Shown piece by piece: positions 13,930-36,535 of a stretch of 64,000 nt of DNA. Origin of the DNA: Spirochaetota bacterium (lineage in GTDB: Bacteria > Spirochaetota > Spirochaetia > SZUA-6); contig JAADHF010000131.1 of NCBI GenBank assembly GCA_013151965.1, forward strand, positions 193,763 to 257,762, read 5' to 3'. Both the position numbers and the translations under genes were made by a program. Position 1 is the first letter of the stretch. Every line of letters starts with the position of its first letter. Under the pieces are notes generated by a model. It saw nothing but the letters and a program-made list of their open reading frames with translations, was not told where the DNA came from and ran no database searches.

Positions 13930-13967
13930 AGTTGTAATGTAATGACTTTTATACCGGAAGGTCAAGA

Positions 13968-13995
13968 TTGACAAGCAAGATAGAGGGATTATAGT
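13968..13995 (+). promoter_or_regulatory. Sigma-70-type promoter of the 14004 lipoprotein gene
   Basis: TTGACA (13968-13973), 16-bp spacer, TATAGT (13990-13995). The expected start of transcription is about 14002, only 2 nt before ATG 14004, which has no Shine-Dalgarno sequence. The mRNA would be essentially leaderless. Confidence 0.7.
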
Positions 13996-14003
13996 ATAAG
14001 CAT

Positions 14004-15239
14004 ATGATAAGAATAAACAAATTATACTATGGGCTTTTGGCGCTGGCTGTTTTGTATGTCTTTTCCGGCTGCACAAAAAGCGGATTATCCGAATTAAAAA
14101 AAAAGAATCTGTTCAGTCTGAATATCGGTAAAATAGATAATGCGATCGACCTTTTCCAAATCCCCGGAAAAGGATTTGCGGCAAAAAACAGAGTATATAT
14201 GAGGAACGGGATATTCTATATTTCCAATGGAAATTCAAATAAGTTGATGGAATTTACATCCTACGGTGATCTTATCTTTATGCTCTACGATCCTCTGATG
14301 AATTCAAAACCTGTCCTTCTCGATTCCGGCCTTTCCGGTGGGGAAAAAACGACAAGACGTGCTGTAGCGTACAATTTCCATCAGATCGGCGAGGTGGTCG
14401 TGGACAGCAATAATAGTATTTGGGTGGAGGATGTTGTATCCCGGGATAAGTACGTAAAGGATAAGAAAAGAAATATTGTGCTTAAAAAGGTTGTGCGGCA
14501 CTTTTCACGGGAAGGCGAATTAATCAACTATATCGGACAGGAAGGAATCGGAGGCACCCCTTTTCCGTATATAGAAAATCTGTATATAACTGTTCATGAT
14601 GAGCCTGTGGTTGTAACACGTACTCCTCTTGAATGGGATATATTCTGGTTTTATTCTTCGGGAGAGTTAAAGTATCATATTAAAATCGATAACAGACATC
14701 TGCCCAATCCGTCGGGGGATAATGCCCGGAAAGGTGAAATAGGGAAAATTGTCGCTGATTATAATGATTCTATTCTCTATGTGGCTGTTTCTTACTTTAA
14801 AGATATAATAGATCCGTCGACACATACACGGTCCGGTGTTAAAAAGACAGGTTCGTATATATTTTCTTTAGACTTGAGAGATAAATTGTATAAAGAATTG
14901 ATTAAAATACCAGGCACGGAACAGCTTAAAGAGGTTGTGGGAACAAAAGAACTGAAAATACCCGGTCCGTCGTACGAATTAATGGGAATAACGAAAAATA
15001 GATTTATATTTTTACTGCGGAATGAAGGTGTTAATAAGTACAGGCTGCTTATAAAGGATTTCTCAGGTAAAACCATAGGGATGAGAATTATGACCATAGA
15101 AGATACGGCGCTTTATTTTAAGTATATAACAGTCGATCCATCAGGTATTATATACGGTATACTTGCCGATGATAAAGAAGCGCATATTGTCTGGTGGAGA
15201 AGCGACAAACTATTAAAGAAAGATGAAGAGAACAAATGA
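14004..15239 (+). CDS. Spirochaetal lipoprotein, beta-propeller-like
   Basis: A 411-aa exported lipoprotein: signal helix ending in lipobox FSGC with C23 as the lipidation site. The mature part is rich in short strands with aromatic/Gly turns ([31 protein letters not shown]), suggesting an NHL- or YncE-like propeller. I recall similar propeller lipoproteins from Leptospira and Treponema, but the exact family is not certain. ATG 14004 is needed for the signal peptide and lies 8 nt after a -10 box, with no ribosome binding site. The stop overlaps the next start by 4 bp (ATGA). Confidence 0.7.
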
Positions 15240-15820
15240 ACAGGAAATCAAAGGAAGGATCAAACGATTCCGGTCCGGATAAAAGTAAAAAACATGATTC
15301 TTTTACGGTAAAGAAAAGTGCGGAAGAAAAGATAGTTTTCCATTACAACAGAGACGAAAGGCTTTCCATGCCGACAGCCCCGGCTGAAGGAAAAAGGAGC
15401 AGGGGAATATTTAAAGGAAACAAAACTTTAATTATTTTGTTTATCAATGTTATCGTTATTTTCCTTGTGCTGTTTTTATTTTTTCGTTTCATTAACAAAC
15501 CTTCATATAAAAATGTTAAGGCCGGTTATCGTCTGGAACTGGATGCATTCCCGTATGCCGATGCTATTCTTGTTTCTCTCTATATTAAGAGGGTAAAAGA
15601 GAATAAAACAAATGGTAAATACCGGATTTCCGCATTATTCTATACATCAGGGGAACCGGAAAAGAAAAAGATAATAAGTGAAGATGCACCTGCCGGGAAA
15701 GACCGGGAGATTATACTCAGGACCAAACTGCATTGGCTGGCAAGAGATGATTCGGTTAATGCGGAAGTGGATATAGGAGGTGTGATGGTAGTACTCAAAA
15801 GATCTGTTAAGAAAAAATAA
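15236..15820 (+). CDS. Single-pass membrane protein of unknown function
   Basis: A 194-aa protein with a charged, Ser/Lys-rich cytoplasmic N-terminus (1-60), one membrane helix (TLIILFINVIVIFLVLFLFF, about 63-83) and an outside domain of about 110 residues with beta-type pattern ending in a basic tail. It overlaps the lipoprotein gene by 4 bp, so the two are translationally coupled and may work together at the envelope. No known domain was recognised. Confidence 0.7.
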   Translation: MNRKSKEGSNDSGPDKSKKHDSFTVKKSAEEKIVFHYNRDERLSMPTAPAEGKRSRGIFKGNKTLIILFINVIVIFLVLFLFFRFINKPSYKNVKAGYRLELDAFPYADAILVSLYIKRVKENKTNGKYRISALFYTSGEPEKKKIISEDAPAGKDREIILRTKLHWLARDDSVNAEVDIGGVMVVLKRSVKKK

Positions 15821-15822
15821 TA

Positions 15823-15851
15823 TTGACGATGAACTTTTATTTGATTATCAT
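15823..15851 (+). promoter_or_regulatory. Sigma-70-type promoter of the 15858 gene
   Basis: TTGACG (15823-15828), 17-bp spacer, TATCAT (15846-15851). The predicted +1 (about 15858) coincides with the A of the ATG of the next gene. Confidence 0.6.
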
Positions 15852-15857
15852 TTGCAC

Positions 15858-16271
15858 ATGGTACAGTTTTATTTTCTTTCCATAGTGGCAAATTTTTTAG
15901 GTGGTGTTGCGCTGTCGGCCGATTACCTGGGAACTAAATTTCCCTTTTTTGAATCGATGAAAGGTACATTTCAGAAGCGCAGTATTAAGATCGGCCTGGG
16001 ATTCACAGCCCTTATCGTGGGAATTTTTAAATTGATTGTAAAACCTGTCGGATGGGCTGTTCCTTTTGCGGGAGATCTTCTTCCTGCATTAACAGGTATA
16101 GGTATCGGTCTTGCTTTACTGTTTGATTTTTTCAAGCAGAAGACAAACCTGGAAAAGGAAAGCATGGAAAAAGTTGAAAATGCCGTTATGACATACAGAG
16201 TTCCTTTAGGGATACTCGGCATGGTTGTGGCCTTTCTTCACTTTCTGATTCCGGGTGCACTATTTCTGTAA
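15858..16271 (+). CDS. Small multi-pass membrane protein, unknown
   Basis: A 137-aa hydrophobic protein with about four membrane helices: residues 3-22, 44-62, 70-90 and the C-terminal end. Gly/Pro-rich turns (PVGWAVPFAGDLLPALTGIG) separate them. No family was recognised. ATG 15858 has no Shine-Dalgarno sequence and sits 7 nt from the end of a -10 box; a TTG two codons upstream is also possible. The gene is convergent with the EF-G-like gene, 29 bp apart, without an obvious terminator. Confidence 0.65.
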   Translation: MVQFYFLSIVANFLGGVALSADYLGTKFPFFESMKGTFQKRSIKIGLGFTALIVGIFKLIVKPVGWAVPFAGDLLPALTGIGIGLALLFDFFKQKTNLEKESMEKVENAVMTYRVPLGILGMVVAFLHFLIPGALFL

Positions 16272-16300
16272 AATAAAATCACTATGCAATAATATACGGA

Positions 16301-18376
16301 TCAGCTGTGTTCTTTCTCCGTTTTAGCGGCTTTTATAACGTCCTCCGCCGCTTTTCCGGTAATGGGATTGTAATGACTGAATTCCATCTCGAATGCTGCT
16401 GTACCCGATGTTATCGAACGCAGATCGATCGAATATCTGAGCAGTTCGGACTGAGGCACCTGTGCCTTAATTTCCTGTATTCCGCCCCCAATGGGCTCCT
16501 GCCCTAATACGCGTCCTCTTCTGGAACTTAAATCGGATAAAACATCCCCGAGGTATTGATCATCGACAAACACGAATAAATTCATTACAGGTTCGAGTAG
16601 AACGGGTTTTGCCTTTGCAACGGCATCTTTAAGTGCCCCGCGGGAGGCCAGTTTAAAGGCAAGTTCGGACGAATCGACAGGGTGTTCCTTGCCATCCACT
16701 ACTTTTGCTTCGATATCCACGATAGGATAACCTGCAAGGTAGCCGGCTTCCATTCCTTCGAGTATGCCTTTTTCCACGCCCGGTATGTAGCCTCTGGATA
16801 TAGCTCCGCCGACAATGGCATTGACAAATTTAAACTTTTCACCCCTGGGCAGAGGTTTAATTTCCAGAACGACTTTTGCATACTGGCCGTGTCCGCCTGT
16901 CTGTTTTTTGTGAAGATGTTCGGCTCCGGCAGAAGCTGTTATTGTTTCCCTGTAGGCGACTTTCGGAACCCATGTTTCTATCTCTATTTTTTGTTTTTCT
17001 CTTATTTTATCAAGGATGATCGAAATATGCTGTTCGCCCATTCCTGAAATTACATTTTCCTTTGTTTCTTTGTTAAAATGAAGCTTAAATGTCAGGTCCT
17101 CTTCCGCCGCTCTTATCAGAAGCTGATTTAATTTATCCTCGTCTTTCTTAACCTTTGCGGAAACTGCCAGTGAATGTACAGGCTGGGGAATCTGGAGGGG
17201 AGGAAAAACAATAGGACTGTCTATAGCGCAGAGAGAATCATTCGTTTTTACCGATCCGAGCTTTGCAAAACAGCCTATATCTCCTGCAATGAGTTCTTCC
17301 GCTTCTTCCAGCTTTTTGCCCTGAATTGTATATATCTTGGAAAGTTTTTCTTTCTTATCAGCATTTACATTGAGTATATCCGAATCCGGGGTAATTTTCC
17401 CCGAAATTATTTTAACGAGCGAAAGTTTGCCCGTAAATTGATCAATAGTTGTCTTAAAGACAAATGCGGAGAAAGGTTCCGATTCGTCATACTTTCTTGT
17501 AATTTCTTTTCCGTCTGCAGTAGAAGCCTTTTCTTCGTTGAATGGAAACGGTGCAGTTTCGGAAAGAATATCGAGCATCACCTTAAGTCCGGAATTTAAT
17601 TCCGCAGAACCTGCAAAAATCGGAACTATCTTATTCTCTGTTATTCCCTTCCTGAGGCCTTTGATTATTTCTTCCCTGGATAAAGTTCCCTCATCAAAAT
17701 ATTTCTCAATAAGTTTATCATCGCCTTCTGCCGCTGTCTCTATAAGCTGCTGCCGGTACTCTTCTGCCTGATCTTTGAATTCGGAAGGAATTTCCGTTTC
17801 CTCGATTTCTTTTCCTTCCTTGGAGTACATATATGCTTTTTTATCTACCAGATCGATAATTCCCTTAAATGAACTGCCGGAACCTATCGGCAGTGTAACC
17901 GCTATAACCGAAGATTTGAATTTATCCTTTATATCTGCGGCCGCTTTATCAAAATCGGCATGTTCCTTATCCATTTTGTTAACGAAAACGAATCTGGGCA
18001 TATGCCTGGCGTCCAGTCTTCTCCAGATTTTAATGGTTTGTATCTGTACGCCGACATCGGCGCCAAGTAATACCAGGGCGGAATCCGCAACACGGAGGGC
18101 GGCAACGACTTCGCCCACAAAATCCGAAGATCCCGGGGTATCAAAAATATTAATCTTCGTATTATTCCAGTTAATATGTTCGATCGATGTATGTATGGAT
18201 ATTTTTTTTGCAATTTCTTCTTCTGTAAAATCACTTACAGTCTGCCCTTTGTCCACGGATTCTCTTTTCGGTATTATTCCCCCGCCAAAAAGAAGTCCTT
18301 CTGTTAATGTTGTTTTACCGGTTCCTCCATGACCGCAGACTGCAATATTTCTGATGCCGGAAGTAGTGATACTCAT
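16301..18376 (-). CDS. EF-G-like translational GTPase (EF-G II type) lacking the catalytic His
   Basis: A 691-aa protein with full EF-G domain order: G domain with P-loop GHGGTGKTT and NKMD, then domains II to V including the KKQTGGHGQYAKV region. The G3 motif reads DTPGSSDF, where canonical EF-G has DTPGHVDF; the His that promotes GTP hydrolysis is a Ser. Thermus EF-G-2 likewise has a non-His residue here. The frame is open 20 codons upstream, but AAGGAGAG before ATG 18376 fixes the start at MSITTSGIRN. It is probably an accessory factor, not the main translocase. Its job is not known from the sequence. Confidence 0.82.
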   Translation of the reverse strand: MSITTSGIRNIAVCGHGGTGKTTLTEGLLFGGGIIPKRESVDKGQTVSDFTEEEIAKKISIHTSIEHINWNNTKINIFDTPGSSDFVGEVVAALRVADSALVLLGADVGVQIQTIKIWRRLDARHMPRFVFVNKMDKEHADFDKAAADIKDKFKSSVIAVTLPIGSGSSFKGIIDLVDKKAYMYSKEGKEIEETEIPSEFKDQAEEYRQQLIETAAEGDDKLIEKYFDEGTLSREEIIKGLRKGITENKIVPIFAGSAELNSGLKVMLDILSETAPFPFNEEKASTADGKEITRKYDESEPFSAFVFKTTIDQFTGKLSLVKIISGKITPDSDILNVNADKKEKLSKIYTIQGKKLEEAEELIAGDIGCFAKLGSVKTNDSLCAIDSPIVFPPLQIPQPVHSLAVSAKVKKDEDKLNQLLIRAAEEDLTFKLHFNKETKENVISGMGEQHISIILDKIREKQKIEIETWVPKVAYRETITASAGAEHLHKKQTGGHGQYAKVVLEIKPLPRGEKFKFVNAIVGGAISRGYIPGVEKGILEGMEAGYLAGYPIVDIEAKVVDGKEHPVDSSELAFKLASRGALKDAVAKAKPVLLEPVMNLFVFVDDQYLGDVLSDLSSRRGRVLGQEPIGGGIQEIKAQVPQSELLRYSIDLRSITSGTAAFEMEFSHYNPITGKAAEDVIKAAKTEKEHS

Positions 18377-18536
18377 TAATACTCTCCTTAATTTATGGGC
18401 TTGGTTAAATATATCTTTAGAAATTTTCTTTGTCAAGAATAGGCCGTGTTCTTCAGGTCTCCGGATAAGATTTGCTTACAGGCTATGCAGCCGTGGATTT
18501 CACAGTAAGATAAGAATCTTAAGTTTTATGGTTTTA

Positions 18537-18565
18537 TTGACCCCTGCATACTTTAGTCCTACAAT
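18537..18565 (+). promoter_or_regulatory. Sigma-70-type promoter of the 18572 gene
   Basis: TTGACC (18537-18542), 17-bp spacer, TACAAT (18560-18565). Predicted +1 at about 18572 is the first base of the start codon; ATGATG there gives two in-frame choices. No ribosome binding site is present. Confidence 0.7.
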
Positions 18566-18571
18566 ATATAT

Positions 18572-20305
18572 ATGATGATTAGGATTTCGCCTTTTGATCG
18601 TCTTGTTTCCGGGCTTTCAAAAAAGGAAAGAGAAGAACTGCTTGCCAGAATAGAGTCCTCCGTCCGGATATCTAGCTCTCCTGTTATGGATATACGGAAA
18701 GATCCGGATGAACAGGTAGATATCGAGGAAGAGTACAGCAGGCTGCCTTTTTTCCCCAGATTTTTTATCTGGATAAAGTCCATACTAGGAGGGAACAGCA
18801 GGGAAGAGCTCATGGAAGCCGCCCTGTATCTTAAGCTTCGGAAAAGGATCGAAAAAGGTTATCCGGGCATTGTTGATTTTAAAAATAACCTTTTTTTATC
18901 CGGTATGTTCGATAAATTAAAAAATCTTCTCGATGCTGTGACTTTTTTCCGTTCCTCTGTTTTGCCTGCCCTGGGGAAACACAGAGGAATATTTTTTACT
19001 TTTCTGGCAAATGAGGAGTTAAATGATATAGACAGGAAAATCGAGGAAGCGATAGAACCTGAAGCTATTCAGTCGGAAATGCAGTATCTCGATGTCCAGA
19101 ATATCAGGGCGGAGATGATGAATAAACTGGAAGAAGTAATTGACGGAATTGAAGAGGCTGACAGGATAAGAGTTTATAATGATGTCATAATTCTTCAGTC
19201 ACTGTACAATCTGTGTCTGTTCAGAATAGAGGATATAGCCGGAAAGTTTAAACAGCCCTTTGGTGCTTCGGAATATACAGTTCCGTTTAATGATATCAGC
19301 AGACTTATAACCGAACTTACCTGCCGTCTTTATTCTTTTAAGATTCCGCCGAATGCAAAGCTCCTGCAGATTTTGTTTTTTTTCTCATACCAGGAAAAGA
19401 ACAGCGGTGATTACGGTTTTGCGGATGACCTTACATCGGACCTTATGCATTCGGAGGAAAAACTGAATGCAATAAGAGATTTTAACCGGACCGTCCCGCT
19501 GCTTGATATTTCCCGATATCTCCTCAGGGATTTAAATTACAGGCCTGAAATTATGAGAGGCGGAGAAGATTGGTTTTTTTATTTTAAGAAATTCTGGGAA
19601 AAGAGGCTGGATTACAGATTCAGGGTGTTCAGGTTTAATAACCGGAGGCGGGAAATTATAAAAGAGATAGCTGAATTCTTTAGAATGGAGAAATTCGAAT
19701 TTCCTTTAAACTATAGAGATAATATTTCGGGCTACAATATACATGCCGCTTTTCCCGTTTCCATTGGTTTCCTGCAGAATTTCTATGATCGGTTTTTTTC
19801 GGTAAAAATAAATACTCCCTTAAAAATACTTGTTTTAAACGGGGAATTCTACAAGGAAGAGAACAGGGTAGAGTTTACGGATTCCTTCAATGGTACGGTT
19901 AATATTAAAGAGGATTTAAAACGGCTTTATAAAGATTTCGGAAAAACCGGAAAATACGGGATTGAATTGTCAAAAATAAGAAATGAACTTATAAAAACAG
20001 GATTAAAAGAAAAACAGGTAAATATAATTGTCGAAAATGCTGACAAGGATGCGGAGAGTATTATTAATAATTCACTTGTAAATTTAGGAAACCTGGTAAA
20101 GATTTTAGATGGTGTTTTGTACGGAGAGGTAGGAGGAAAGTACGATACTATTTCCAATTACGGTGATATCAATGGAAGCAGAAATAAGAATTATATAGAT
20201 TCCTTAAAATCAATAATTAAAATTCTGGATAAATCCGTTGTACTGTTGAACAAAGTCTATAAACTGGAAAAATCGAGGCCTGCTACGCTGATTGACTCTA
20301 ATTAA
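18572..20305 (+). CDS. Large cytoplasmic protein of unknown function (spirochaete DUF5312-like)
   Basis: A 577-aa soluble protein with no signal peptide or membrane segment, rich in charged helices. The start (RISPFDRLVSGLSKKEREELLARI) recalls proteins annotated as DUF5312 in Treponema and relatives; that match is from memory and uncertain. The C-terminal quarter has a long Lys/Asn-rich helical stretch. The gene begins at a leaderless-type promoter and is followed 26 bp later by pgeF and argS, probably in one operon. Confidence 0.6.
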   Translation: MMIRISPFDRLVSGLSKKEREELLARIESSVRISSSPVMDIRKDPDEQVDIEEEYSRLPFFPRFFIWIKSILGGNSREELMEAALYLKLRKRIEKGYPGIVDFKNNLFLSGMFDKLKNLLDAVTFFRSSVLPALGKHRGIFFTFLANEELNDIDRKIEEAIEPEAIQSEMQYLDVQNIRAEMMNKLEEVIDGIEEADRIRVYNDVIILQSLYNLCLFRIEDIAGKFKQPFGASEYTVPFNDISRLITELTCRLYSFKIPPNAKLLQILFFFSYQEKNSGDYGFADDLTSDLMHSEEKLNAIRDFNRTVPLLDISRYLLRDLNYRPEIMRGGEDWFFYFKKFWEKRLDYRFRVFRFNNRRREIIKEIAEFFRMEKFEFPLNYRDNISGYNIHAAFPVSIGFLQNFYDRFFSVKINTPLKILVLNGEFYKEENRVEFTDSFNGTVNIKEDLKRLYKDFGKTGKYGIELSKIRNELIKTGLKEKQVNIIVENADKDAESIINNSLVNLGNLVKILDGVLYGEVGGKYDTISNYGDINGSRNKNYIDSLKSIIKILDKSVVLLNKVYKLEKSRPATLIDSN

Positions 20306-20331
20306 AGACTCTGATTAAATGCTTGTTCGAA

Positions 20332-21099
20332 ATGGTTAAACATATAACACTCTCTATCGCAGATGAAGATCTATATACGGAAATACCTTTCCCTTATATT
20401 CCGGATTGTAATATCAGGGGTTTTGTCTCTTTAAGGAATGCGGGGAATATGAGCATTTCCGGCAGTGATACTGTAAGAAGCAGAAACCGGATCTATTCCG
20501 CTTTAGGGATTAACGGAGACAGGGTTGCGTTTCTGCACCAGGTTCATTCAAAGAAAGTTCTGAATGCCGATACCGTAAAGGATAAACCGGCAGGCGGAAT
20601 TACGGGAGACGGACTTATCTCCGGTGACAGAAGTATCATACTTTCGGTTACTGTAGCGGACTGTCTTCCCGTATTTCTTCTGGATAAAAGAAACTGTTTT
20701 TTCGGTTTGCTTCATTCCGGCCGGAGAGGAACGGGTATTGTACTGAATGCGGTAAAAATGATGGAGAAGATGCTTGGAAGCGTAAAAGAAGATATAGCTG
20801 TTCTGCTTGGCCCGGGAATCGGTGTGTGCTGTTATGAAGTTTCCGAAGATCTGTATCTCAGTTTTAAGAACAGCTATGGTGGAATATCGGCCGTTAAACG
20901 GAATAACAAATATTTTATAGATTTAAGGGAGGCAAATATCAATATTCTTAAAGATACCGGCATTAAAGATATAGGTGTAATAGATGACTGCACGTCATGC
21001 AATAAAGATTTGTATTCTTTCCGGCGTGACGGCAAAGAAAAATTCAGAACAATGACGGCTTTGATCGGGGAAATAAGCAGAGAGGATGTGGAAAAATGA
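20332..21099 (+). CDS. pgeF: Peptidoglycan editing factor PgeF / YfiH laccase-domain protein
   Basis: A 255-aa protein of the DUF152/YfiH family, whose members act as purine nucleoside phosphorylase/deaminases or as peptidoglycan editing factors. Conserved metal and substrate motifs are visible: FLHQVHS, VTVADCLPVFLLD, LHSGRRGTG and GVCCYEVSEDLY, with the late Cys pair DDCTSC. ATG 20332 is used; a TTG three codons earlier is possible. No clear ribosome binding site is seen. The stop overlaps the argS start by 4 bp (ATGA). Confidence 0.85.
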   Translation: MVKHITLSIADEDLYTEIPFPYIPDCNIRGFVSLRNAGNMSISGSDTVRSRNRIYSALGINGDRVAFLHQVHSKKVLNADTVKDKPAGGITGDGLISGDRSIILSVTVADCLPVFLLDKRNCFFGLLHSGRRGTGIVLNAVKMMEKMLGSVKEDIAVLLGPGIGVCCYEVSEDLYLSFKNSYGGISAVKRNNKYFIDLREANINILKDTGIKDIGVIDDCTSCNKDLYSFRRDGKEKFRTMTALIGEISREDVEK

Positions 21100-22868
21100 G
21101 AGATTTAAAAGGGTATTGGCGGGGAGTAATCGGCAGAGTAATAGATTTAATTGCCGAAAATGAAAAAAAAGGGACCGGTATGGTCAGCCCTGATTCGATT
21201 ATCACGGAAGTTCCTCCCGACCCCGAAATGGGCGACATTGCTTTTCCTATGTTTCAATTTTCTAAGATATTAAAAAAATCACCGAAAGAAATAGCGGAGC
21301 AGTGCAGAACACTCCTGGAATCGGAACATTTAACGGATAAAAAAGCAGGCACTCCTGAAGTTTCCGGGGCTTATCTGAATATCCGGTTAGACCGCATGCA
21401 GGTTACAGAGGAAGTGCTGGCAAGGATAGGAAAACAGGCTGATGATTACGGGAAAGGGGAAGCCTTAAATAAAAAAAGAATCACCATAGAATTCTCATGC
21501 CCGAATACAAACAAACCTCTGCATCTGGGGCATTTAAGAAACGACGCCATAGGGATGAGCCTGTCGCTTATACTTGAAGCATCGGGCGCTCTGGTGAGAA
21601 GAGTAAACCTTATTAACGACAGGGGAATTCATATATGTAAATCCATGCTGGCCTATAAAAAGTTCGGAGAGGGAAGTACTCCGGATACAGAGGGGGTTAA
21701 AGGAGATCATTTTGTAGGAAAATACTATGTTCTGTTTAACGAATGGGCAGAGAAGGACCCGGATGCGGAAAAAAAAGCGCGTAAAATGCTGAAAAAATGG
21801 GAACAGGGTGATCCGGAGATAATGGAGCTGTGGAAGAAGATGAATGGATGGACTATCGATGGGATACAAAAGACCTATACTGCCACAGGAGTGGAGTTCG
21901 ATCAGGTATATTACGAAAGTGATACGTATAAATTGGGAAAAGAGGAAGTACTTAAAGGGCTAAGTAAGGGGGTTTTCTACAGGGATAAGGATGATTCGGT
22001 ATGGGTGGACCTTACCGGGGAAGGCCTCGATAAAAAAGTTCTTCTAAGAAGTGACGGTACATCCCTGTACCTGACGCAGGATATCGGTACTGCAGTTATG
22101 AGATATAATGACTGGCCCTTCGATACCCTGATCTATGTAGTTGCTTCGGAGCAGAATTATCACTTTAAAGTTCTCTTTAAAGTTCTGAGTCTGCTCGGAT
22201 ACAAATGGGCTAAGAATCTGTATCATCTTGCCTATGGAATGGTTAATCTCCCGGAAGGGAAGATGAAATCGCGCGAGGGGAAAGTTGTAGATGCGGATGA
22301 TCTTATAGAGGATCTATGTGAACTCGCTTTAAAGGAAATCGTTGCAAAGGGCAGGGATTCGGAAATATCAGACATAAAAACCACGGCAGGGATGATTGCA
22401 GCAGGTGCACTTAACTATTATCTGCTGCAGGTATCACCTTACAAGGACATGGTTTTCTATCCTGAAGAATCTATTTCGTTTACCGGAAATACCGGACCTT
22501 ATCTTCAATACACGGGAGCAAGGATTTCCAGTGTTTTAAGAAAGTATTACGGGAATAAAGAAAAATACGCCGGAGGAGCACTAAAGCCCGGGCTGTTGAC
22601 AGGGAAGGAAGAGTGGGAACTTGTAAAAATGTTAGCTAATTTCCCCGGGATTATCGAAAATGCCGCGGAACAGAAGAATCCGTCTGTTATTGCCGTTTTC
22701 CTTTTTGAATTAGGGAAGCATTTCAGCCGGTTTTATCACGATAACCCGATTCTGCATAATGAAAACCGCGACCTTATCGCAACAAGGATAGCACTCGCAG
22801 AATCTGTCGTGCAGGTTTTAAAGAACGGTCTTAAGCTCATCTGTGTTCCTTTTTTGGAAAAGATGTAA
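21096..22868 (+). CDS. argS: Arginyl-tRNA synthetase
   Basis: Class I synthetase of 590 aa that charges tRNA-Arg. The N-terminal tRNA D-loop recognition domain (about 1-115) is followed by the HIGH motif as HLGHLRND and by a KMSKS-like site in MKSREGKVVDADD, with the alpha-helical anticodon domain at the C-terminus (YLQYTGARISSVLRK onward). It is translationally coupled to pgeF. Its 3' end overlaps the convergent CAP-domain gene by 32 bp. Confidence 0.95.
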   Translation: MRDLKGYWRGVIGRVIDLIAENEKKGTGMVSPDSIITEVPPDPEMGDIAFPMFQFSKILKKSPKEIAEQCRTLLESEHLTDKKAGTPEVSGAYLNIRLDRMQVTEEVLARIGKQADDYGKGEALNKKRITIEFSCPNTNKPLHLGHLRNDAIGMSLSLILEASGALVRRVNLINDRGIHICKSMLAYKKFGEGSTPDTEGVKGDHFVGKYYVLFNEWAEKDPDAEKKARKMLKKWEQGDPEIMELWKKMNGWTIDGIQKTYTATGVEFDQVYYESDTYKLGKEEVLKGLSKGVFYRDKDDSVWVDLTGEGLDKKVLLRSDGTSLYLTQDIGTAVMRYNDWPFDTLIYVVASEQNYHFKVLFKVLSLLGYKWAKNLYHLAYGMVNLPEGKMKSREGKVVDADDLIEDLCELALKEIVAKGRDSEISDIKTTAGMIAAGALNYYLLQVSPYKDMVFYPEESISFTGNTGPYLQYTGARISSVLRKYYGNKEKYAGGALKPGLLTGKEEWELVKMLANFPGIIENAAEQKNPSVIAVFLFELGKHFSRFYHDNPILHNENRDLIATRIALAESVVQVLKNGLKLICVPFLEKM

Positions 22869-23553: not shown

Positions 23554-23603
23554 AGTAAATTATATTATATATAGTTTTTATACACTTGTTCTACGGAGTA
23601 GTT

Positions 23604-25646: not shown

Positions 25647-25669
25647 TTAAGGAAATAGTACCGCCCCGC

Positions 25670-25699
25670 TTGACAGTGGAATTGTTTTGTTCCTAAAAT
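25670..25699 (+). promoter_or_regulatory. Sigma-70-type promoter of ileS
   Basis: TTGACA (25670-25675), 18-bp spacer, TAAAAT (25694-25699). Predicted +1 near 25706 gives a short leader that carries AGGAGG (25712-25717). This rules out upstream in-frame start codons. Confidence 0.7.
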
Positions 25700-25722
25700 A
25701 CCAGAGTTTACAGGAGGACATA

Positions 25723-28848: not shown

Positions 28849-29726
28849 TTTATTCAGCCCTTTCGCTGTTTATTATTCTTCTCTCCATTTCATCCTGTGC
28901 GACTGCTCCGCCTATGAGAGCTTCCGAGGATTGGTTTGCATTGCTCCCCTCGCATTCCGGCATATATATATATCTGGATAAGAACAGGACAGCAGCAATG
29001 GTTGAGAACGTTCTGAAATCCATGGATCTTTTTGATAATGATATTAAATTTATTCTATCTAAAACCACAAAAATTTACGGGGCTGTAGATTTTTCCGGTG
29101 ATTCCGAACCTGTGTTGTCCATTCTTACACTCGGATCCTATCCGTCCTCTTTGATAGGCTTAAGGCTGTCCATGAACAGGGAATGGAAAAGAAGGAAAAG
29201 TATCAGGCCGTATTTCGTAAGCGGCAGTAACAAAATGGAAATCTCTCTGCCCGGCAATAATGTTATTCTTATTTCACAGGGTAAGATAGAAGAGATGCTT
29301 AAGAATTATCAATCACCTCCTGTTTTTAAGATGCCCATGGAGGTAAAAAATGATCTTCATTCATCGGATTTTCTCGTTTTTTTCCCGTTGTTTTCGGAGG
29401 GGACAGCATTGAATAATAACTTAAGCAGCATGAAAACTACGGTAAATGAGCTGTGGCTGACCGGAAGAAGAGACGGAGAGATGTTTAAACTGAACGGTGT
29501 TTTCGGTTTATCCTCGGAGAAACAGGCAAAGCTCTTTGCCGTAGTTTTTAAGTTTATCATAACTGCATGGCTGAGGCAGGAAAAGGTACAAAATATAGGT
29601 AAGTTGTTAAAATCTGTTGTTGTAAAAGCTGACGGGAATTTTGTGAGAATATCCGGTCTAAAATTACCGGAAAAAAAGATTACTTCACTGCTGACCGGGA
29701 TGGTTAAAAAGGGAAAGAGTAAGTGA
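28818..29726 (+). CDS. Lipoprotein of unknown function
   Basis: A 302-aa protein with signal helix and lipobox SISSC (lipidated C27). The mature part starts ATAPPMRASEDWFALLPSHSG and is of mixed alpha/beta type. No conserved motif was recognised. ATG 28818 lies 3 nt after GGAGAGGA (28807-28814); an in-frame ATG at 28803 is less likely. It starts inside the 3' end of ileS, and its stop overlaps hisH by 4 bp, so ileS, this gene, hisH and hisF probably form one transcript. Confidence 0.7.
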   Translation: MFYLHRKNSLIYSALSLFIILLSISSCATAPPMRASEDWFALLPSHSGIYIYLDKNRTAAMVENVLKSMDLFDNDIKFILSKTTKIYGAVDFSGDSEPVLSILTLGSYPSSLIGLRLSMNREWKRRKSIRPYFVSGSNKMEISLPGNNVILISQGKIEEMLKNYQSPPVFKMPMEVKNDLHSSDFLVFFPLFSEGTALNNNLSSMKTTVNELWLTGRRDGEMFKLNGVFGLSSEKQAKLFAVVFKFIITAWLRQEKVQNIGKLLKSVVVKADGNFVRISGLKLPEKKITSLLTGMVKKGKSK

Positions 29727-30337
29727 ATAACGGAAGTACCGGAGTTGTCGATTATAAAGCGGGAAATCTAAAGAGCGTCGAAACGGCATTACGCCATCTG
29801 GGTGCCTCGTTTTATATTTCAGGGGATCCGGATAAAATATTTAAAGCGGACCGTTTAATAATCCCGGGTGTGGGAGAGGCACGTACTGCGATGGAAAATC
29901 TTAAGCAGGCAGGACTCGATACTGCAATAATCGATTTTTACAATACGGGAAAACCCGTTCTGGGTATATGTATCGGGATACAGCTCCTCTTCGAGAGTTC
30001 AACGGAGCGGAATACCAGGTGCCTCGGCCTGCTAAAAGGCACGGTAGTCCGGTTTCCGGAAACGATCGGCTTAAAAGTGCCCCATATGGGGTGGAATCAG
30101 GTTATGCCTGTAAAAAAGAATTATTTGTTTTCAGGGATACCGGCCGGTTCTTCTTTTTATTTTGTGCATTCCTACTATCCGAAACCGGCTGTATCTGATT
30201 ATGTATTGGCGGAGACGGAATATGGCATTAAATTTGCCAGTGCCGTAGGCTGTAATAACATAACGGCTGTTCAGTTTCATCCTGAAAAATCCGGTAAAGC
30301 GGGACTTAAACTGATTTCCAATTTTCTGAATTTTTAA
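29723..30337 (+). CDS. hisH: Imidazole glycerol phosphate synthase glutaminase subunit HisH
   Basis: A 204-aa class I glutamine amidotransferase that feeds ammonia to HisF in histidine biosynthesis. The nucleophile Cys is in VLGICIGIQLLF, with the His/Glu pair in AVQFHPEKS and the family signature VPHMGWN. The oxyanion region reads IPGVGEARTAM, slightly off the usual PGVGAF. The start is GTG, overlapping the previous stop (GTGA). hisF follows after 19 bp. No other his gene lies in the window. Confidence 0.92.
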   Translation: MNNGSTGVVDYKAGNLKSVETALRHLGASFYISGDPDKIFKADRLIIPGVGEARTAMENLKQAGLDTAIIDFYNTGKPVLGICIGIQLLFESSTERNTRCLGLLKGTVVRFPETIGLKVPHMGWNQVMPVKKNYLFSGIPAGSSFYFVHSYYPKPAVSDYVLAETEYGIKFASAVGCNNITAVQFHPEKSGKAGLKLISNFLNF

Positions 30338-30356
30338 GACGGAGAGATCGTAAATA

Positions 30357-31127
30357 ATGCTGGAAAAACGAATTATTGTATGCCTCGATGTAAAAGAAGG
30401 AAGAACTACAAAGGGTATTAAATTCAAAGAGAATAAAGATGTCGGTGATCCTGTTAAAATGGCGGAAACCTACTATAAAGACGGCGTGGATGAGCTTGTT
30501 TTTTATGATATAACGGCCTCTGCGGAAAAAAGAAAGATAATGATAGATGTCGTCAGGCGGGTGGCGGAAAGGATCTTTATTCCCTTTTCGGTCGGCGGGG
30601 GAATCGCAGATACGGATGATATGCGGGAGGTTTTACTGGCCGGTGCGGAGAAGGTCAGTGTAAATTCACAGGCGGTTAAAAATCCCTCCGTAATAGAGGA
30701 GGGGGCCTCTCTGTTCGGAAGACAGTGCATTGTACTGGGTCTGGATGCTGCACGTGATCCGGGAATGAAAAACGGATACAGGGTTTTTATTAACGGAGGA
30801 CGTACAAAAACCGATCTGGATGCACTTGAGTGGGCTGAACGTGCAGAGGTGTTAGGTGCGGGGGAGATTGTCGTTAACTCCATGGATGCGGATGGTACTC
30901 AGGATGGATATGAGAATAATCTGACGCGGCTTATTTCGACTAATGTAGGAATACCGGTGGTGGCATCGGGAGGCGCCGGCAGGCCGGAGCATCTGTACGA
31001 TGTGTTTACCAGGGGAAAAGCGGATGCCGCGTTAATTGCCTCGATGGTGCATTATAACAGATACCGGATTTCGGATATTAAAAAATACCTTAAGGACAGG
31101 GGTGTCTGCGTAAGAATTGTTTCATGA
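30357..31127 (+). CDS. hisF: Imidazole glycerol phosphate synthase cyclase subunit HisF
   Basis: A 256-aa (beta/alpha)8 barrel that makes imidazole glycerol phosphate and AICAR from PRFAR with HisH-supplied ammonia. Catalytic Asp residues are in VCLDVKEG and VLGLDAARD; phosphate-binding motifs are FSVGGGI and VVASGGAG. It carries an extra few residues ([10 protein letters not shown]) and the reading [18 protein letters not shown] lies before ATG 30357. It pairs with hisH as an isolated two-gene unit. Confidence 0.92.
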
Positions 31128-31205
31128 ATATGTTATTGCCAATTTAAGACTATTTTAATATATTTATAACTATAATTCTTGAAATCCCTCTGTCAGGAGA
31201 ACATG

Positions 31206-31508
31206 ATGCCCACATACGATTATGAATGTACACATTGCGGTCATACTTTCGAAGCTTTTCAGAAGATTACGGATGGTCCGATTAAGGTCTGCCCTGAATG
31301 CGGCAAATCCCTTAAACGGCTTATCGGCGGCGGATTAGGCATAATATTTAAAGGCAGCGGGTTTTATACAACCGATTATAAACGCTCTTCGGCTAATTCC
31401 GGAAACGCCGCTTCGAAAGCGGATAAGCGAAAAAGCGAAACGGGGAGTAATGGTTCTGCGGATAAGACCGGCAGTGATAAGGATAAACATTCGGATTCTA
31501 AAAAGTGA
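31206..31508 (+). CDS. FmdB-type zinc ribbon protein
   Basis: A 100-aa protein with the FmdB/putative regulatory zinc ribbon: MPTYDYECTHCGHTFEAFQ, then CPECGKSLKRLIGGG. The four Cys form a rubredoxin-like zinc site. The C-terminal 40 residues are a disordered Ser/Lys/Asp-rich tail. AGGAGA at 31195-31200 fits ATG 31206. The function of the family is not settled. Its end overlaps the convergent thiI by 11 bp. Confidence 0.85.
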   Translation: MPTYDYECTHCGHTFEAFQKITDGPIKVCPECGKSLKRLIGGGLGIIFKGSGFYTTDYKRSSANSGNAASKADKRKSETGSNGSADKTGSDKDKHSDSKK

Positions 31509-32664
31509 CAATTTTTATTTTATCTATTGCTTCTTCGATTAAGTCATCGAGATTAAGGGATTTGTAGATGGCTTCCATGTCCTTGAAAACCGGTTTTACG
31601 ATAGGATGAACCGGAGCAAACAGGGTACAGCAGTCCTCATAGGGAAGAATCGATGTCCTGAATGTGCCTATGTTCCGGGCAATATTTATAATTTCTTCCT
31701 TGTCCATTCCGATCAGCGGCCTGAAAACCGGAAGGTCGCTTTTACTGCCGCTGAAACGTATACTCTCCGGGGTCTGGCTTGCAACCTGTCCAAGGCTCTC
31801 GCCTGTTACCAGGCAGAGGGCATATTTCTGTTTTGCAAGTTTACATGCAATAGCTACCATGGCCGCCCTCATCATAAGAGTAACAGCCCGGGACTGTGAA
31901 TGTTCCTTGATTCTCTCCTGTATTGCCGTGAAGGGGAGAATATTTAATACGAATTTAGGGATGTAACCGGAAAGCAGCCGGGATAGTTTTACAACCTTAT
32001 CAAGGGCTTTTACGGAAGTATAGGGAGGCGAATCGAAATAGATTGCCTCCTGGGTAAGACCTCTTTTCGCCATATAATAACCTGCAACAGGAGAATCGAT
32101 TCCTCCGGAAAGTAAGAGAATTCCTCTTCCCGAAACTCCTACAGGAAGTCCGCCCGGGCCTTTTATCTGCCCTGCATACAGGTAGGCATATTCGCGTATT
32201 TCCACATTCACAGTCCAGTCCGGTTTGTGTACGTCAACTGTAAGTTCCTTATATTTTGAAAGCAGAAAATCACCGAGTTCACATGCAATTTTATACGAAT
32301 TAAAGGGGAAGGACTTATCCGTCCGCCTGGCTTCGATTTTAAAGCGGAGAAGATCTTTTGATACGGAAGGTGCGGCAAGAAGACCGGCGGCTTTTTTTAT
32401 CTCTTCCATTTCCTTATGCACCTTTAGAGCGGGTGCAAAGCCGATAATTCCGAATATTTCTTTTAAGCCCGATATTATCCTGTCATGCTGACCGGAAGGA
32501 TATTCGATATAAAAACGGCCCTGATGCCGGATAATGTTTATCTTTATTGCGCTGAATTTAAGTTTTATATTGCTGACAAGCTTTTTCTCGAAATATTTTC
32601 TGTTTCCCTTTTTTAATGAGATCTCCCCGTATTTTATAAGAATGAGGTTTGTCATATTATTCAT
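31498..32664 (-). CDS. thiI: tRNA 4-thiouridine synthetase ThiI (without rhodanese domain)
   Basis: A 388-aa protein with ferredoxin-like and THUMP domains (about 1-165) and a PP-loop ATPase domain with LLLSGGIDSPVAGY. It adenylates U8 of tRNA for sulfur insertion. The E. coli-type rhodanese extension is absent, as in Bacillus ThiI, where the partner cysteine desulfurase supplies sulfur directly. A Cys pair in YEDCCTLF is present. Its ATG overlaps the cysteine desulfurase stop by 4 bp, matching the Bacillus nifZ-thiI arrangement. Confidence 0.92.
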   Translation of the reverse strand: MNNMTNLILIKYGEISLKKGNRKYFEKKLVSNIKLKFSAIKINIIRHQGRFYIEYPSGQHDRIISGLKEIFGIIGFAPALKVHKEMEEIKKAAGLLAAPSVSKDLLRFKIEARRTDKSFPFNSYKIACELGDFLLSKYKELTVDVHKPDWTVNVEIREYAYLYAGQIKGPGGLPVGVSGRGILLLSGGIDSPVAGYYMAKRGLTQEAIYFDSPPYTSVKALDKVVKLSRLLSGYIPKFVLNILPFTAIQERIKEHSQSRAVTLMMRAAMVAIACKLAKQKYALCLVTGESLGQVASQTPESIRFSGSKSDLPVFRPLIGMDKEEIINIARNIGTFRTSILPYEDCCTLFAPVHPIVKPVFKDMEAIYKSLNLDDLIEEAIDKIKIVTF

Positions 32665-33863
32665 GCTCCGGCTATACCGGTTAACCGCGGTATTGTATCT
32701 CTGATTATGGAAATTGCCGTATTTATCTCTTCTTCCGTTGTAGTGTTTCCGAAGGAGAACCGTACCGCGGATGAATATAATTCAGGATTGTATCCCATAT
32801 TTTTTAATACTCTTCCTCTTGATAGACTGCTGTGTGCACTGCATGCAGAACCAGCAGAAATCATAATGCCTTTCTCCGAGAGCGCACGTACGGTTACTTC
32901 CGAAGGAACCGGCGGGAATGCAGCACTGATTATATAGGGCGAGAATTGTGAGGATTCGAAATTAAGGCGCTCTTCCGGGATAATTACAGCATTCTTAATT
33001 TCTTTTATTTCCCTTATAAAATAACAGGATAGTGCATACATTTTACCAGGATTTTCATGCACGGCAGGAACGGCTTTCTCTGCCGAGCGAAAAAAGCCGT
33101 ATATGCCTGGAAGATTTTCCGTTCCGGGTCTGATGTTCTTTTCCTGTCCGCCCCCGGAATATAGAGGGATTATTTTTTCGATATCCTTTAGATATAAAGC
33201 ACCCACTCCCCTTGGTCCTCTGATTTTATGGGCACTGAACGAAGCCGAATCCACACCTGAGCCTGTCAGGGAAAACGGTATTTTCCCCAATGCCTGTACA
33301 GCATCGGTATGAATGTGTATATACCTGCCGGTATTTCCCGAGTATTTTCGTACGATTTCCGTTAAGCTCTCTACCGGCTGAACGGCACCTGTTTCATTGT
33401 TAACCAATATGACGGAAACTAAAACCGTATCCTTTTTAAGTTTCCCTTTAAGATCGTCAAGGTCAACTATGCCGTTTCTGCCGGTGCGGATAAAATCGAG
33501 GGTAAATCCGATATTACTTAAGGTTCTTGCCGGCTCATACATCGACGGATGTTCGATACCGCTTATGATAATTCCGGGATGGTGTTTAAGGATACTGTCT
33601 GTTTTTAGTTTTTTTAAAAGAGAAAAAAGAACGAGGTTGTTGGATTCCGAACCTCCCGATGTAAAGATAAGCTGGTCGTCCCGTATATCGAGTACTTTTG
33701 CCATATTATTTCTGCAGGTCATAAGGAAATCACCGGCCTTTAATCCCTGTTCATGTACGGATGAAGGATTGGCAAAATATGTAAGAGCGATCCGGTTAAC
33801 GTCTGTTAGAATATCAATATCCGGGATTGCCGTTGCCGCCCAGTCAAGGTATATTTGTTTCAT
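32661..33863 (-). CDS. Cysteine desulfurase (NifS/IscS/NifZ family)
   Basis: A PLP enzyme of about 400 aa that draws sulfur from cysteine as a persulfide. Visible are the N-terminal LDWAATA, the PLP Lys in SFSAHKIRGPRGVGAL and the catalytic Cys in SAGSACSAHSS. Coupling to thiI suggests it serves tRNA thiolation, like Bacillus NifZ; no iscU-like scaffold is nearby. The start may be ATG 33863 or the adjacent GTG 33866. Both lie within about 11 nt of a -10 box and lack a ribosome binding site. Confidence 0.9.
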   Translation of the reverse strand: MKQIYLDWAATAIPDIDILTDVNRIALTYFANPSSVHEQGLKAGDFLMTCRNNMAKVLDIRDDQLIFTSGGSESNNLVLFSLLKKLKTDSILKHHPGIIISGIEHPSMYEPARTLSNIGFTLDFIRTGRNGIVDLDDLKGKLKKDTVLVSVILVNNETGAVQPVESLTEIVRKYSGNTGRYIHIHTDAVQALGKIPFSLTGSGVDSASFSAHKIRGPRGVGALYLKDIEKIIPLYSGGGQEKNIRPGTENLPGIYGFFRSAEKAVPAVHENPGKMYALSCYFIREIKEIKNAVIIPEERLNFESSQFSPYIISAAFPPVPSEVTVRALSEKGIMISAGSACSAHSSLSRGRVLKNMGYNPELYSSAVRFSFGNTTTEEEINTAISIIRDTIPRLTGIAGA

Positions 33864-33874
33864 CACTGTTACAC

Positions 33875-33903
33875 ACTATAGAGAAGTAAAAATATTTCTT
33901 CAA
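33875..33903 (-). promoter_or_regulatory. Promoter of the cysteine desulfurase-thiI operon
   Basis: On the - strand: TTGAAG (33903-33898), 17-bp spacer, TATAGT (33880-33875). The predicted transcript starts 1-5 nt before the start codon (GTG 33866 or ATG 33863). Confidence 0.65.
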
Positions 33904-33919
33904 GTTTAAAATAATGTTC

Positions 33920-33948
33920 TTGAAAAAATATTATACTCAAGATATGCT
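33920..33948 (+). promoter_or_regulatory. Promoter of the arsR-family gene
   Basis: TTGAAA (33920-33925), 17-bp spacer, TATGCT (33943-33948). Predicted +1 near 33955 leaves about 5 nt before ATG 33960. The region is AT-rich and lies back to back with the leftward promoter at 33875-33903. Confidence 0.5.
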
Positions 33949-33959
33949 ATATATAAATT

Positions 33960-34247
33960 ATGGAAATAGATAAATCTTTAGTTGAAAAAATCGAACATCT
34001 GGCGCCTCTTTTAAAGGTCTGCGGACATCCTTTAAGGTTAAAGATTCTCTGTGCAATAGAGAAAAATGAATCGTGTGTAACGGAGCTGTGGACATGCCTT
34101 AATCAGACGCAGCCTGTTGTTTCGCAGCATCTGGCTGTACTTAAAAAAAGGGATATTGTCCGTTCTTCCGTAAGGGGAAATAAGAGGTATTACTCCATTA
34201 TTAACCCTTTTATCAAGACTCTTGTTCGGGATATTATTCTGTCCTGA
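33960..34247 (+). CDS. ArsR-family winged-helix regulator
   Basis: A 95-aa DNA-binding repressor-type protein. The recognition helix region is QTQPVVSQHLAVLKKRDIV and the wing is RSSVRGNKRYYSI. In the usual alpha-3 metal motif position (ELCVCDLC) it reads ESCVTELWTCL, keeping one Cys and adding another, so metal or redox sensing through a different Cys set is possible. It is divergent from the cysteine desulfurase gene with a 93-bp shared control region. What it senses and controls is unknown. Confidence 0.85.
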   Translation: MEIDKSLVEKIEHLAPLLKVCGHPLRLKILCAIEKNESCVTELWTCLNQTQPVVSQHLAVLKKRDIVRSSVRGNKRYYSIINPFIKTLVRDIILS

Positions 34248-34330
34248 ATTATCACGTATATAATATTTCTCATACGGTTCGATTGTTCCCGGAAAGGCCG
34301 TAAGCTGTTCCCTGTTTTTAAAAAAGCTTT

Positions 34331-35863
34331 TTATTGAAACTGTTTAACGAAATTCAGTATAAGGTTTGTAACTGTTATAAGCGCAGTTGTAAAGGTTGTA
34401 ATTACAACTATGTTGTCGAATATTTTTTGAGTCTGTATCCAGCTGGTCTTATCGACATAGATTAAATCACCGGGATGCACCTCAGAGGTGAGCAGTGCAT
34501 GTTTTCTGCTTCCTTTATTATCTACAAAGAAAATCTTATTCTTATCTCCCGTATCAGGGTTTATTCCTCCCGCTGCAAGCAGATAGTCGGAGACCGTATA
34601 TCCGCTTGAATACGAAAAGGCACCGGGATTAAAAACCTGTCCGGATACGAAAACCTTAAGTTTCTTTATCGGGATCAGAACGTAATCATCCGCCTGCAGT
34701 TTTATGTCGTTATCGCGGTTTTGGTTTTCCCAGAGGGATTTAACATCTAAAGGTATTTTTTCCCCCGTTGCACCCCTTACTATGTAGCTTGCTGATGCGT
34801 CGGCAAAGGGAGTCGGCCCTCCGAGCTGGGTTAACACATCCAGAAGTGTTATTCCTGAAATATAAGGTATATTTACAGCAATGCTCCTTGTGGGAATAGT
34901 TACGGGTTTATCATGGGATATGGGTTTGCCGTACAGTGCACCTTCTATCATGATCATCCCCTGTTTTTCCGATTTTCCGCGTATTACTACTCTGTCTTCG
35001 TTTTTAATTTTCATGTGGCCCTGTTCAGAGAGATTCACTGTCATAAGAGAAACATTCTTCTGTAAGAACCTTGTTATTTCTATTTTGGAAACCTCTGCAT
35101 CCAGTGTTGCTCCGCCTGCATAATAGATTAGGTTGTCGAGGTCTTCTCCGGGAAGGAGTTCATAAATTCCGGGATATCTTACTTTGCCGCTGATTTTAAC
35201 GATAATCTGCGCCTGGGGGATGTATATTTTATCACCGGGTTGAAGGGTCGGATTCTGGGATATATCCGCATGCAGATTGAACTGTGAAAGATCGATGGTA
35301 CGCTGAACACCGTTTCGAAAGAGTATTACATTCCTGTAACTCGCTCCGGCTTTTAATCCCTTTACTTCGGTTATTGCATCCCATACCCTGGTCAGAGGAT
35401 TGGCGGTAATCATACCCGGCTGTTTAACTCCGCCGTAAACGAAAACATCAAATTGTGCAGGTGAACTAAGTATAAAACTTACGTAGTCGGTCGGAATCGA
35501 TGATTTAATTTTTTTCTGAACTAAATTCCGAAGTTCCATGAAGGTCATTTTTTTTGCATTAACAGTACCGATATAAGGAACGTCCAGATCGTAATTCTGC
35601 TGAAGCACAAGTATATACGATGTTACCTTGTCAAGCTTTATAATGAGCTGATAAGAATCTCCCGGTGTAGGCCTGTATACAGTATTGCTCAGTATACGTT
35701 TTATTAAAACAGCATCATTCGGCGTCCTCTGGATACTCGGCACACCGAGCTGTCCGAAACTGGAAATTTGCAGATTATTATCCTGGGAAACCTCCGCGTT
35801 ATTGTCGGCGGAAAGCATAAAAGCGGATAAAAGCAATATTATAATTACGGCATTTCTTTTCAT
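34331..35863 (-). CDS. SLBB-domain polysaccharide export-type protein
   Basis: A 510-aa exported protein with signal peptide (MKRNAVIIILLLSAFMLSAD), a Poly_export-like N-terminal domain (about 85-150, ending FVYGGVKQPGMI) and several SLBB repeats (KISGKVRYPGIYELLPGE; VFVSGQVFNPGAFSYSSGY). It ends with a hydrophobic helix (about 485-505). Wza-like proteins pass polysaccharide through the outer membrane, but no glycosyltransferase, Wzc or Wzx gene is near. The start is ATG 35863, which sits 8 nt from a -10 box; longer in-frame starts lie upstream of the predicted transcript start. Confidence 0.8.
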   Translation of the reverse strand: MKRNAVIIILLLSAFMLSADNNAEVSQDNNLQISSFGQLGVPSIQRTPNDAVLIKRILSNTVYRPTPGDSYQLIIKLDKVTSYILVLQQNYDLDVPYIGTVNAKKMTFMELRNLVQKKIKSSIPTDYVSFILSSPAQFDVFVYGGVKQPGMITANPLTRVWDAITEVKGLKAGASYRNVILFRNGVQRTIDLSQFNLHADISQNPTLQPGDKIYIPQAQIIVKISGKVRYPGIYELLPGEDLDNLIYYAGGATLDAEVSKIEITRFLQKNVSLMTVNLSEQGHMKIKNEDRVVIRGKSEKQGMIMIEGALYGKPISHDKPVTIPTRSIAVNIPYISGITLLDVLTQLGGPTPFADASASYIVRGATGEKIPLDVKSLWENQNRDNDIKLQADDYVLIPIKKLKVFVSGQVFNPGAFSYSSGYTVSDYLLAAGGINPDTGDKNKIFFVDNKGSRKHALLTSEVHPGDLIYVDKTSWIQTQKIFDNIVVITTFTTALITVTNLILNFVKQFQ

Positions 35864-35870
35864 GCTCTGC

Positions 35871-35899
35871 ATACTAAATTTTTCAAAAAGTGTAGTCAA
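35871..35899 (-). promoter_or_regulatory. Promoter of the SLBB protein gene
   Basis: On the - strand: TTGACT (35899-35894), 17-bp spacer, TAGTAT (35876-35871). The predicted +1 is at or one base before ATG 35863, which has no Shine-Dalgarno sequence. Confidence 0.7.
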
Positions 35900-35956
35900 G
35901 CTCTCAGAGCTTAATGTTCCGGATTGTATATCCGCGGATTTTTTAAAAGCTTATAC

Positions 35957-35985
35957 TTTAAAAAGAAGTAAAAATGGTTTATTAT
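35957..35985 (+). promoter_or_regulatory. Possible promoter of the PEBP gene
   Basis: TTTAAA (35957-35962), 17-bp spacer, TATTAT (35980-35985), ending 10 nt before ATG 35996. The -35 is weak, so this is a low-confidence call. Confidence 0.35.
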
Positions 35986-35995
35986 TACAGTTAAG

Positions 35996-36535
35996 ATGAA
36001 AAAGTTGTTTTATGCTGTGTTTATGTTTTCCTTTATCTGTATATCAATCCAGGGAGAAGGAGGCGATAAAAAAATGAGTTTTACCTTAAGAAGTACCGCA
36101 TTTGAACCCGGGGGTAAAATACCATCCGTATTTACATGCGAGGGTACAGATATTTCCCCTCCGCTTGTGTGGGACCATGCACCGGAAGGAACAAAGGTAT
36201 TCGCCCTTATCTGCGATGATCCCGATGCCCCTGTAGGAACATGGGTGCACTGGGTGATCTACAATATTCCCGGAGAGGCAAAGGGCATTGGGGAAAAAGT
36301 AGACCTTTCGGAGAAGTTAAAAGACGGAACCCTCCAGGGAAAGAACGACTTCGGAAGAATCGGATACGGGGGTCCGTGTCCGCCCAGAGGAAAACCTCAC
36401 AGATACTTTTTTAAACTATATGCTCTGGATAAATCTCTTCCCGTATCCGGGGGTTTAAGGAAGAAGGAACTGCTTGCCGCAATGGAAAAACATATTCTGG
36501 GCGAAGCGGAATTTTACGGCATCTACGAACGGTAG
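35996..36535 (+). CDS. Exported PEBP / YbhB-YbcL family protein
   Basis: A 179-aa protein with a signal peptide (1-21) followed by a phosphatidylethanolamine-binding-protein fold. Conserved ligand-site motifs are CDDPDAPVGTWVHWVIYNIP and GGPCPPRGKPHRYFF. Bacterial members are small soluble proteins without a settled function. No Shine-Dalgarno sequence precedes the ATG. A short hairpin overlaps the stop codon. Confidence 0.85.
   Translation: MKKLFYAVFMFSFICISIQGEGGDKKMSFTLRSTAFEPGGKIPSVFTCEGTDISPPLVWDHAPEGTKVFALICDDPDAPVGTWVHWVIYNIPGEAKGIGEKVDLSEKLKDGTLQGKNDFGRIGYGGPCPPRGKPHRYFFKLYALDKSLPVSGGLRKKELLAAMEKHILGEAEFYGIYER

Follow-up and report, generated by a model that had tools for sequence, protein, structure and literature searches.

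The window, the whole stretch of 64,000 nucleotides analysed here, is part of contig C1 of a Spirochaetales MAG (3.6 Mb, 143 contigs). Among named genomes, Spirochaetales bacterium SZUA-6 is the nearest (89% identity in the DUF5312 protein); it probably lives in a marine habitat, because the SZUA-series MAGs originate from a Mid-Atlantic hydrothermal field (PMC8767757). Two congeners, G002 and G001, have about 90% and about 70% DNA identity to the window genome over the window, respectively. Several genes in the window have promoter boxes placed very close to the start codon. They are listed below with their boxes; genes without a name are designated by the coordinate of their start codon, and the gap is the distance from the end of the -10 box to the start.

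11209-13929, minus strand: secA, predicted leaderless; Pfam SecA domains across the entire protein, start 13929 corresponding to conserved residue 1 in relatives
13936-13941, minus strand: -10 box TACATT of secA, 6 nt before the ATG; box and distance alike in most class relatives
13960-13965, minus strand: -35 box TTGACC of secA, spacer 18 nt; conserved in class relatives
13968-13973, plus strand: -35 box TTGACA of gene 14004, identical in both congeners
13990-13997, plus strand: -10 box of gene 14004, either TATAGT (13990-13995, gap 8) or TAGTAT (13992-13997, gap 6)
14004-15239, plus strand: 411 aa protein of unknown family, predicted leaderless
15823-15828, plus strand: -35 box TTGACG of gene 15858, from the promoter scan and congener footprint
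15846-15851, plus strand: -10 box TATCAT of gene 15858, gap 6 to the ATG
15858-16271, plus strand: 137 aa protein of unknown family, predicted leaderless; both congeners share the start and align from residue 1 (G002, 97%; G001, 79%)
18537-18542, plus strand: -35 box TTGACC of the DUF5312 gene, from the scan, congener footprint and class relatives
18560-18565, plus strand: -10 box TACAAT of the DUF5312 gene, gap 6 to the ATG at 18572
18572-20305, plus strand: DUF5312 (PF17239) protein, predicted leaderless; close promoter retained in class relatives
32661-33863, minus strand: cysteine desulfurase-like class V aminotransferase, predicted leader about 4-5 nt
33875-33880, minus strand: -10 box TATAGT of gene 33863, gap 11 to the ATG at 33863 and 8 to the GTG at 33866
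33898-33903, minus strand: -35 box TTGAAG of gene 33863
33920-33925, plus strand: -35 box TTGAAA of gene 33960
33943-33948, plus strand: -10 box TATGCT of gene 33960, gap 11 to the ATG
33960-34247, plus strand: ArsR-family regulator, predicted near-leaderless; upstream region conserved in G001
34331-35863, minus strand: SLBB polysaccharide-export protein, predicted leaderless
35871-35876, minus strand: -10 box TAGTAT of gene 35863, gap 7 to the ATG
35894-35899, minus strand: -35 box TTGACT of gene 35863, overlapping the spurious TTG start of a long ORF; conserved in G001
35980-35985, plus strand: -10 box TATTAT of gene 35996, gap 10 to the ATG; -35 weak, only TTTAAA
35996-36535, plus strand: PEBP-family protein, a weaker near-leaderless candidate

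A sequence-only reading of this DNA had proposed five main sites (14004, 15858, 18572, 33863 and 35863) at which a promoter abuts the start codon of a gene lacking a Shine-Dalgarno (SD) sequence. The boxes are present at all five, and the SD is absent there as well as at 33960 and 35996, which had been described as weaker and do have larger gaps (11 and 10). The reading was also right that some first genes carry strong SD sequences, such as AGGAGG before the TTG start of ileS (25687) and AAAAGGAGGT at gene 50298. It did not list secA, whose start at 13929 on the minus strand is preceded by the arrangement TTGACC-18-TACATT-6-ATG. The secA gene and gene 14004 are divergent, and their -35 boxes stand back to back, 2 nt apart (13960-13973, GGTCAAgaTTGACA), an organization that both congeners conserve.

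At 14004, 15858 and 18572, boxes and start are preserved in both G002 and G001; at 33863, 33960 and 35863 they are preserved in G001. Conservation at 14004 is strongest in the block that contains both back-to-back -35 boxes together with the -10 box, where ATTATAGTAT is identical in both congeners. The start at 33863 is fixed by the Aminotran_5 match, which begins at residue 4. The longest ORFs of secA and of the SLBB protein reach upstream into their own promoters. For the SLBB protein, G001 carries a TAA in the frame of the upstream extension, and thus the ATG at 35863 is the start and the TTG of the long ORF belongs to the -35 box. Gene finders that rely on SD sequences will misplace starts in these genomes.

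An inverted repeat, AATATTTcTTCAAG / CTTGAAaAAATATT (33891-33904 and 33919-33932), is conserved in G001 and overlaps the -35 boxes of the cysteine desulfurase gene and the ArsR-family gene. This repeat is likely an operator of the ArsR-family regulator, a candidate element that would govern both near-leaderless genes. Downstream of the DUF5312 gene and before the next gene, an element at 20332 (TTGACT-17-TTAAAT, gap 11) is also conserved in G001 and is a possible internal promoter.

The local evidence alone is insufficient, because a plain promoter scan of 13800-19000 shows no excess (12 found, 13.4 expected), and we therefore used start-anchored statistics. The genome-wide counts rest on 1.18 Mb of the MAG, about one third of the genome, taken in stretches. 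Genes were called from codon statistics with upstream signals unused, and the starts are those of our own caller, a few of them wrong. First genes were those with a divergent neighbour or separated by over 60 nt from a co-directional one (n=482); they were divided into non-SD first genes, with an SD match of at most 3 nt (n=228), and SD first genes (n=254). Promoters were of the sigma70 type and were required to match 9 of 12 consensus positions with a spacer of 16-18, and expected counts were taken from dinucleotide shuffles, which control for AT content. A search of the MAG for a 16S gene, from which the anti-SD could be read, found none.

Among the 228 non-SD first genes, 27 promoters lie at a gap of 5-8 nt (1.6 expected) and 18 at 9-13 nt (2.0 expected), a total of 45 against 3.6 in shuffles. 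The 254 SD first genes have none at 5-8 nt and two at 9-13 nt (total 2 vs 3.6 expected), and their promoters peak 21-45 nt upstream (49 vs 10 expected). Close promoters are a feature of the non-SD first genes, with no excess among the SD first genes. When all first genes are counted regardless of SD, 47 promoters are found at 5-13 nt (7.2 expected). The identical procedure applied to 200 kb of E. coli K-12 gave 0 promoters at 5-13 nt. The samples from relatives are small, each of them above expectation (5+1 promoters at gaps of 5-8 and 9-13 nt in G003, 3+0 in G032, 4+0 in G030, and 2+1 in G025).

A two-box EM model in which the distance was left free started from the E. coli consensus; after training on the sequence of this genome, it converges on TTGACA, a spacer of 17 and TATAAT, with a distance peak at gap 6 (log likelihood ratio 391 for real sequences vs 92 for shuffled ones). 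The model places 68 of the 482 first genes (14%; about 7% of all genes) at a gap of 5-13. ATG is the start codon in 65 of these 68 candidates (96%), compared with 334 of 391 other first genes, and the SD match is 3 nt or less in 64. Within the non-SD first genes, the model assigns 37.5 to gaps of 5-8 and 24.0 to gaps of 9-13. The candidates include secA as well as genes for a pyruvate kinase and for EPSP synthase-family, Mur ligase, penicillin-binding and MlaE proteins; membership of the class thus extends beyond regulators and mobile genes. The traits of the TA-led class of leaderless genes are found here: a Pribnow-like TANNNT 5-8 nt before the start above chance, no SD, a preference for ATG, and a start codon and promoter distance that are conserved in orthologues.

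In orthologue pairs with G003, a genome of the same family, the predicted leaderless state occurs in both members of 7 pairs, in a single member of 4 and 3 pairs, and in neither member of 36 (Fisher p 3e-4). This count comes from G003, the orthologues in G030, G025 and G032 being too sparse. At a larger scale, we analysed 39 genomes of class Spirochaetia (one per family, plus a second from the window's own family), in which the pattern TTGAC-N17/19-TANNAT is followed by ATG at 5-8 nt in 1043 cases vs 338 at 0-3 nt; the excess is present in 39 of the 39. This wrong-distance control was chosen because a reversed-pattern control cannot separate leaderless genes from general promoter abundance. 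The DUF5312 gene has a close promoter (gap 6-13) in 15 class genomes, our own included, and one at 16-22 nt in three more.

For secA, we compared 29 class genomes in which its start could be read, ours among them; the best promoter is at gap 6-7 in 23 of these. The class motif is TTGACc-N17/18-TACATT-N6-ATG or a close variant, most -35 boxes are TTGAC(C/T/G), and the 6 nt separating the -10 box and the ATG vary freely. The promoter is 28-50 nt off, mostly with an SD, in the other six genomes. Seven further class genomes include three good fits and three with TACATT or TACAGT 5-9 nt away and a poor -35. In the seventh, G044 (family f24, 1.2 Mb), secA has an SD instead of the close promoter, an apparent loss of leaderless secA in a small-genome family. 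In 21 genomes from other classes of the phylum, no close secA promoter reaches a score of 5, and an SD match of at least 4 nt is present in 20 of them. The simplest reading would be that the class acquired leaderless secA early, at its base or close to it, and that some lineages lost it afterwards. We found no literature on leaderless secA, or on leaderless mRNA in Treponema, among open-access papers, and the class-wide, predicted leaderless secA is what is new here. One might further propose that leaderless secA and DUF5312 are a derived trait of class Spirochaetia, held by selection because the translation of these genes is then controlled separately (for instance in stress, or with limiting 30S initiation) and not a neutral by-product of compact intergenic regions; we regard this as doubtful, and offer it tentatively.

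We propose, with a probability of roughly 0.87, that a housekeeping-sigma promoter directly against the start codon gives rise to leaderless or near-leaderless mRNA, coexisting with SD initiation. The motif positions, the statistical excess, the mutual exclusion with the SD, the ATG bias and the conservation of promoter and start are direct observations, from which we infer the transcript start positions and the ribosomal mechanism. RNA polymerase with the housekeeping sigma would start about 7 nt past the -10 box. Since transcripts usually start 6-7 nt after this box, a gap of 5-8 nt predicts an mRNA that begins on the AUG or within 1-2 nt (leaderless), and a gap of 9-13 nt would leave a leader of a few nucleotides, too short for an SD. 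Elsewhere in bacteria, the ribosome (70S in the bacteria studied) binds the 5' AUG of leaderless mRNA directly. Translation here would most likely proceed by the same direct binding to a 5'-terminal AUG, while other genes, including those internal to operons, would use the SD.

The sequence-only reading had placed the transcript start on or next to the ATG throughout. As a prediction, this is upheld for about 60% of the candidates, whose gap of 5-8 nt fits a strictly leaderless start. Gaps range widely, from 5 to 13 nt, and short leaders may be present in about 40%; 33863, 33960 and 35996 are among these, their transcripts probably having leaders of 3-5 nt. An additional upstream promoter with a longer leader is possible at any single gene. 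The proposed coexistence of two initiation modes gains support from the genome-wide statistics, the congener footprints and the class-wide conservation of the predicted arrangement at secA and DUF5312, and leaderless or near-leaderless initiation alongside SD initiation is strongly predicted.

Alternatively, most transcripts could carry a leader, if a very short one (3-8 nt), with an initiation that is SD-independent and not strictly leaderless. We consider this a real possibility, though rather an unlikely one: the share of non-SD first genes that the EM model puts at 9-13 nt, the gaps of 10-11 nt at 33863, 33960 and 35996, and the finding that only about half of the Leptospira transcripts starting within 10 nt do so within 2 nt (PMC5243855) all speak for it, but the distribution peaks most sharply at gap 6, and the secA gap stays at 6-7 nt from family to family. 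It is hardly credible that the start codons were assigned wrongly and that translation really begins further downstream, after an SD. Isolated wrong calls exist (43925, see below), but the alignments of SecA, the DUF5312 protein and the 15858 product with relatives begin at about residue 1, the domain of the cysteine desulfurase starts at residue 4, and 96% of the candidates have ATG.

Chance promoter look-alikes in AT-rich intergenic DNA would fit the unremarkable plain scan, but a more than tenfold excess at the right distance in non-SD genes only, together with the footprints, refutes this explanation for the whole set and leaves it exceedingly improbable; single weak sites, for example 35996, could have arisen by chance. 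AT-rich upstream sequences of the enhancer type have been discussed for Bacteroidetes. A translation enhancer of this kind (low structure, S1 binding) that merely resembles a -10 box would agree with the slightly weaker mRNA structure of the candidates (mean -2.9 vs -3.8 kcal/mol) and with more A after the start. We nevertheless judge it very unlikely here, as the counted signal includes a conserved -35 hexamer at the right spacing and AT content was controlled by the dinucleotide shuffles.

Given the reports from Leptospira, a survey of genomes and Deinococcus radiodurans, leaderless genes are already known, including in this phylum, and the earlier statement that they are not well described in such organisms does not hold. 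In Leptospira interrogans, dRNA-seq identified 430-450 genes with a transcript start at most 10 nt from the start codon (PMC5243855). This bacterium belongs to the phylum of the window genome, and its mapped starts near the start codon (about half within 2 nt) resemble those predicted here; however, no sigma70 promoter consensus was found there (PMC5243855), whereas the boxes are recognisable here. In the survey by Zheng et al. (2011), 6 of 18 spirochaete genomes were predicted to have leaderless genes, amounting to 1.8-6.9% of genes (PMC3160421). Their TA-led genes have a Pribnow-like signal just before the start, as here, and a share similar to our roughly 7%, but the survey gives per-group counts and not conserved genes (PMC3160421); given its date, the uncultured lineage of the window presumably lies outside it. 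The leaderless genes of Deinococcus-Thermus similarly have TANNNT about 6-7 nt before the ORF alongside GGAG-type SD genes (PMC12340547). They differ in phylum and in extent, with an adjacent -10 motif in about one third of D. radiodurans genes (PMC12340547) compared with about 7% and a clear -35 box here. Our analysis provides a sequence-based set of predicted leaderless genes for a class with only a survey count in the papers searched, and points to an essential gene, that of the export motor SecA, whose predicted leaderless promoter is retained across many families.

Two further starts in the window deserve mention. At 36635, TTTTTTGGAACTTT lies immediately before the start and is conserved in both congeners; the -10 box is weak, and this promoter perhaps uses another sigma factor. 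At 43925, a GTG start 6 nt past a good TAGAAT box appears leaderless; this start is not conserved in G001, and the true start of the gene is probably downstream of the GTG.
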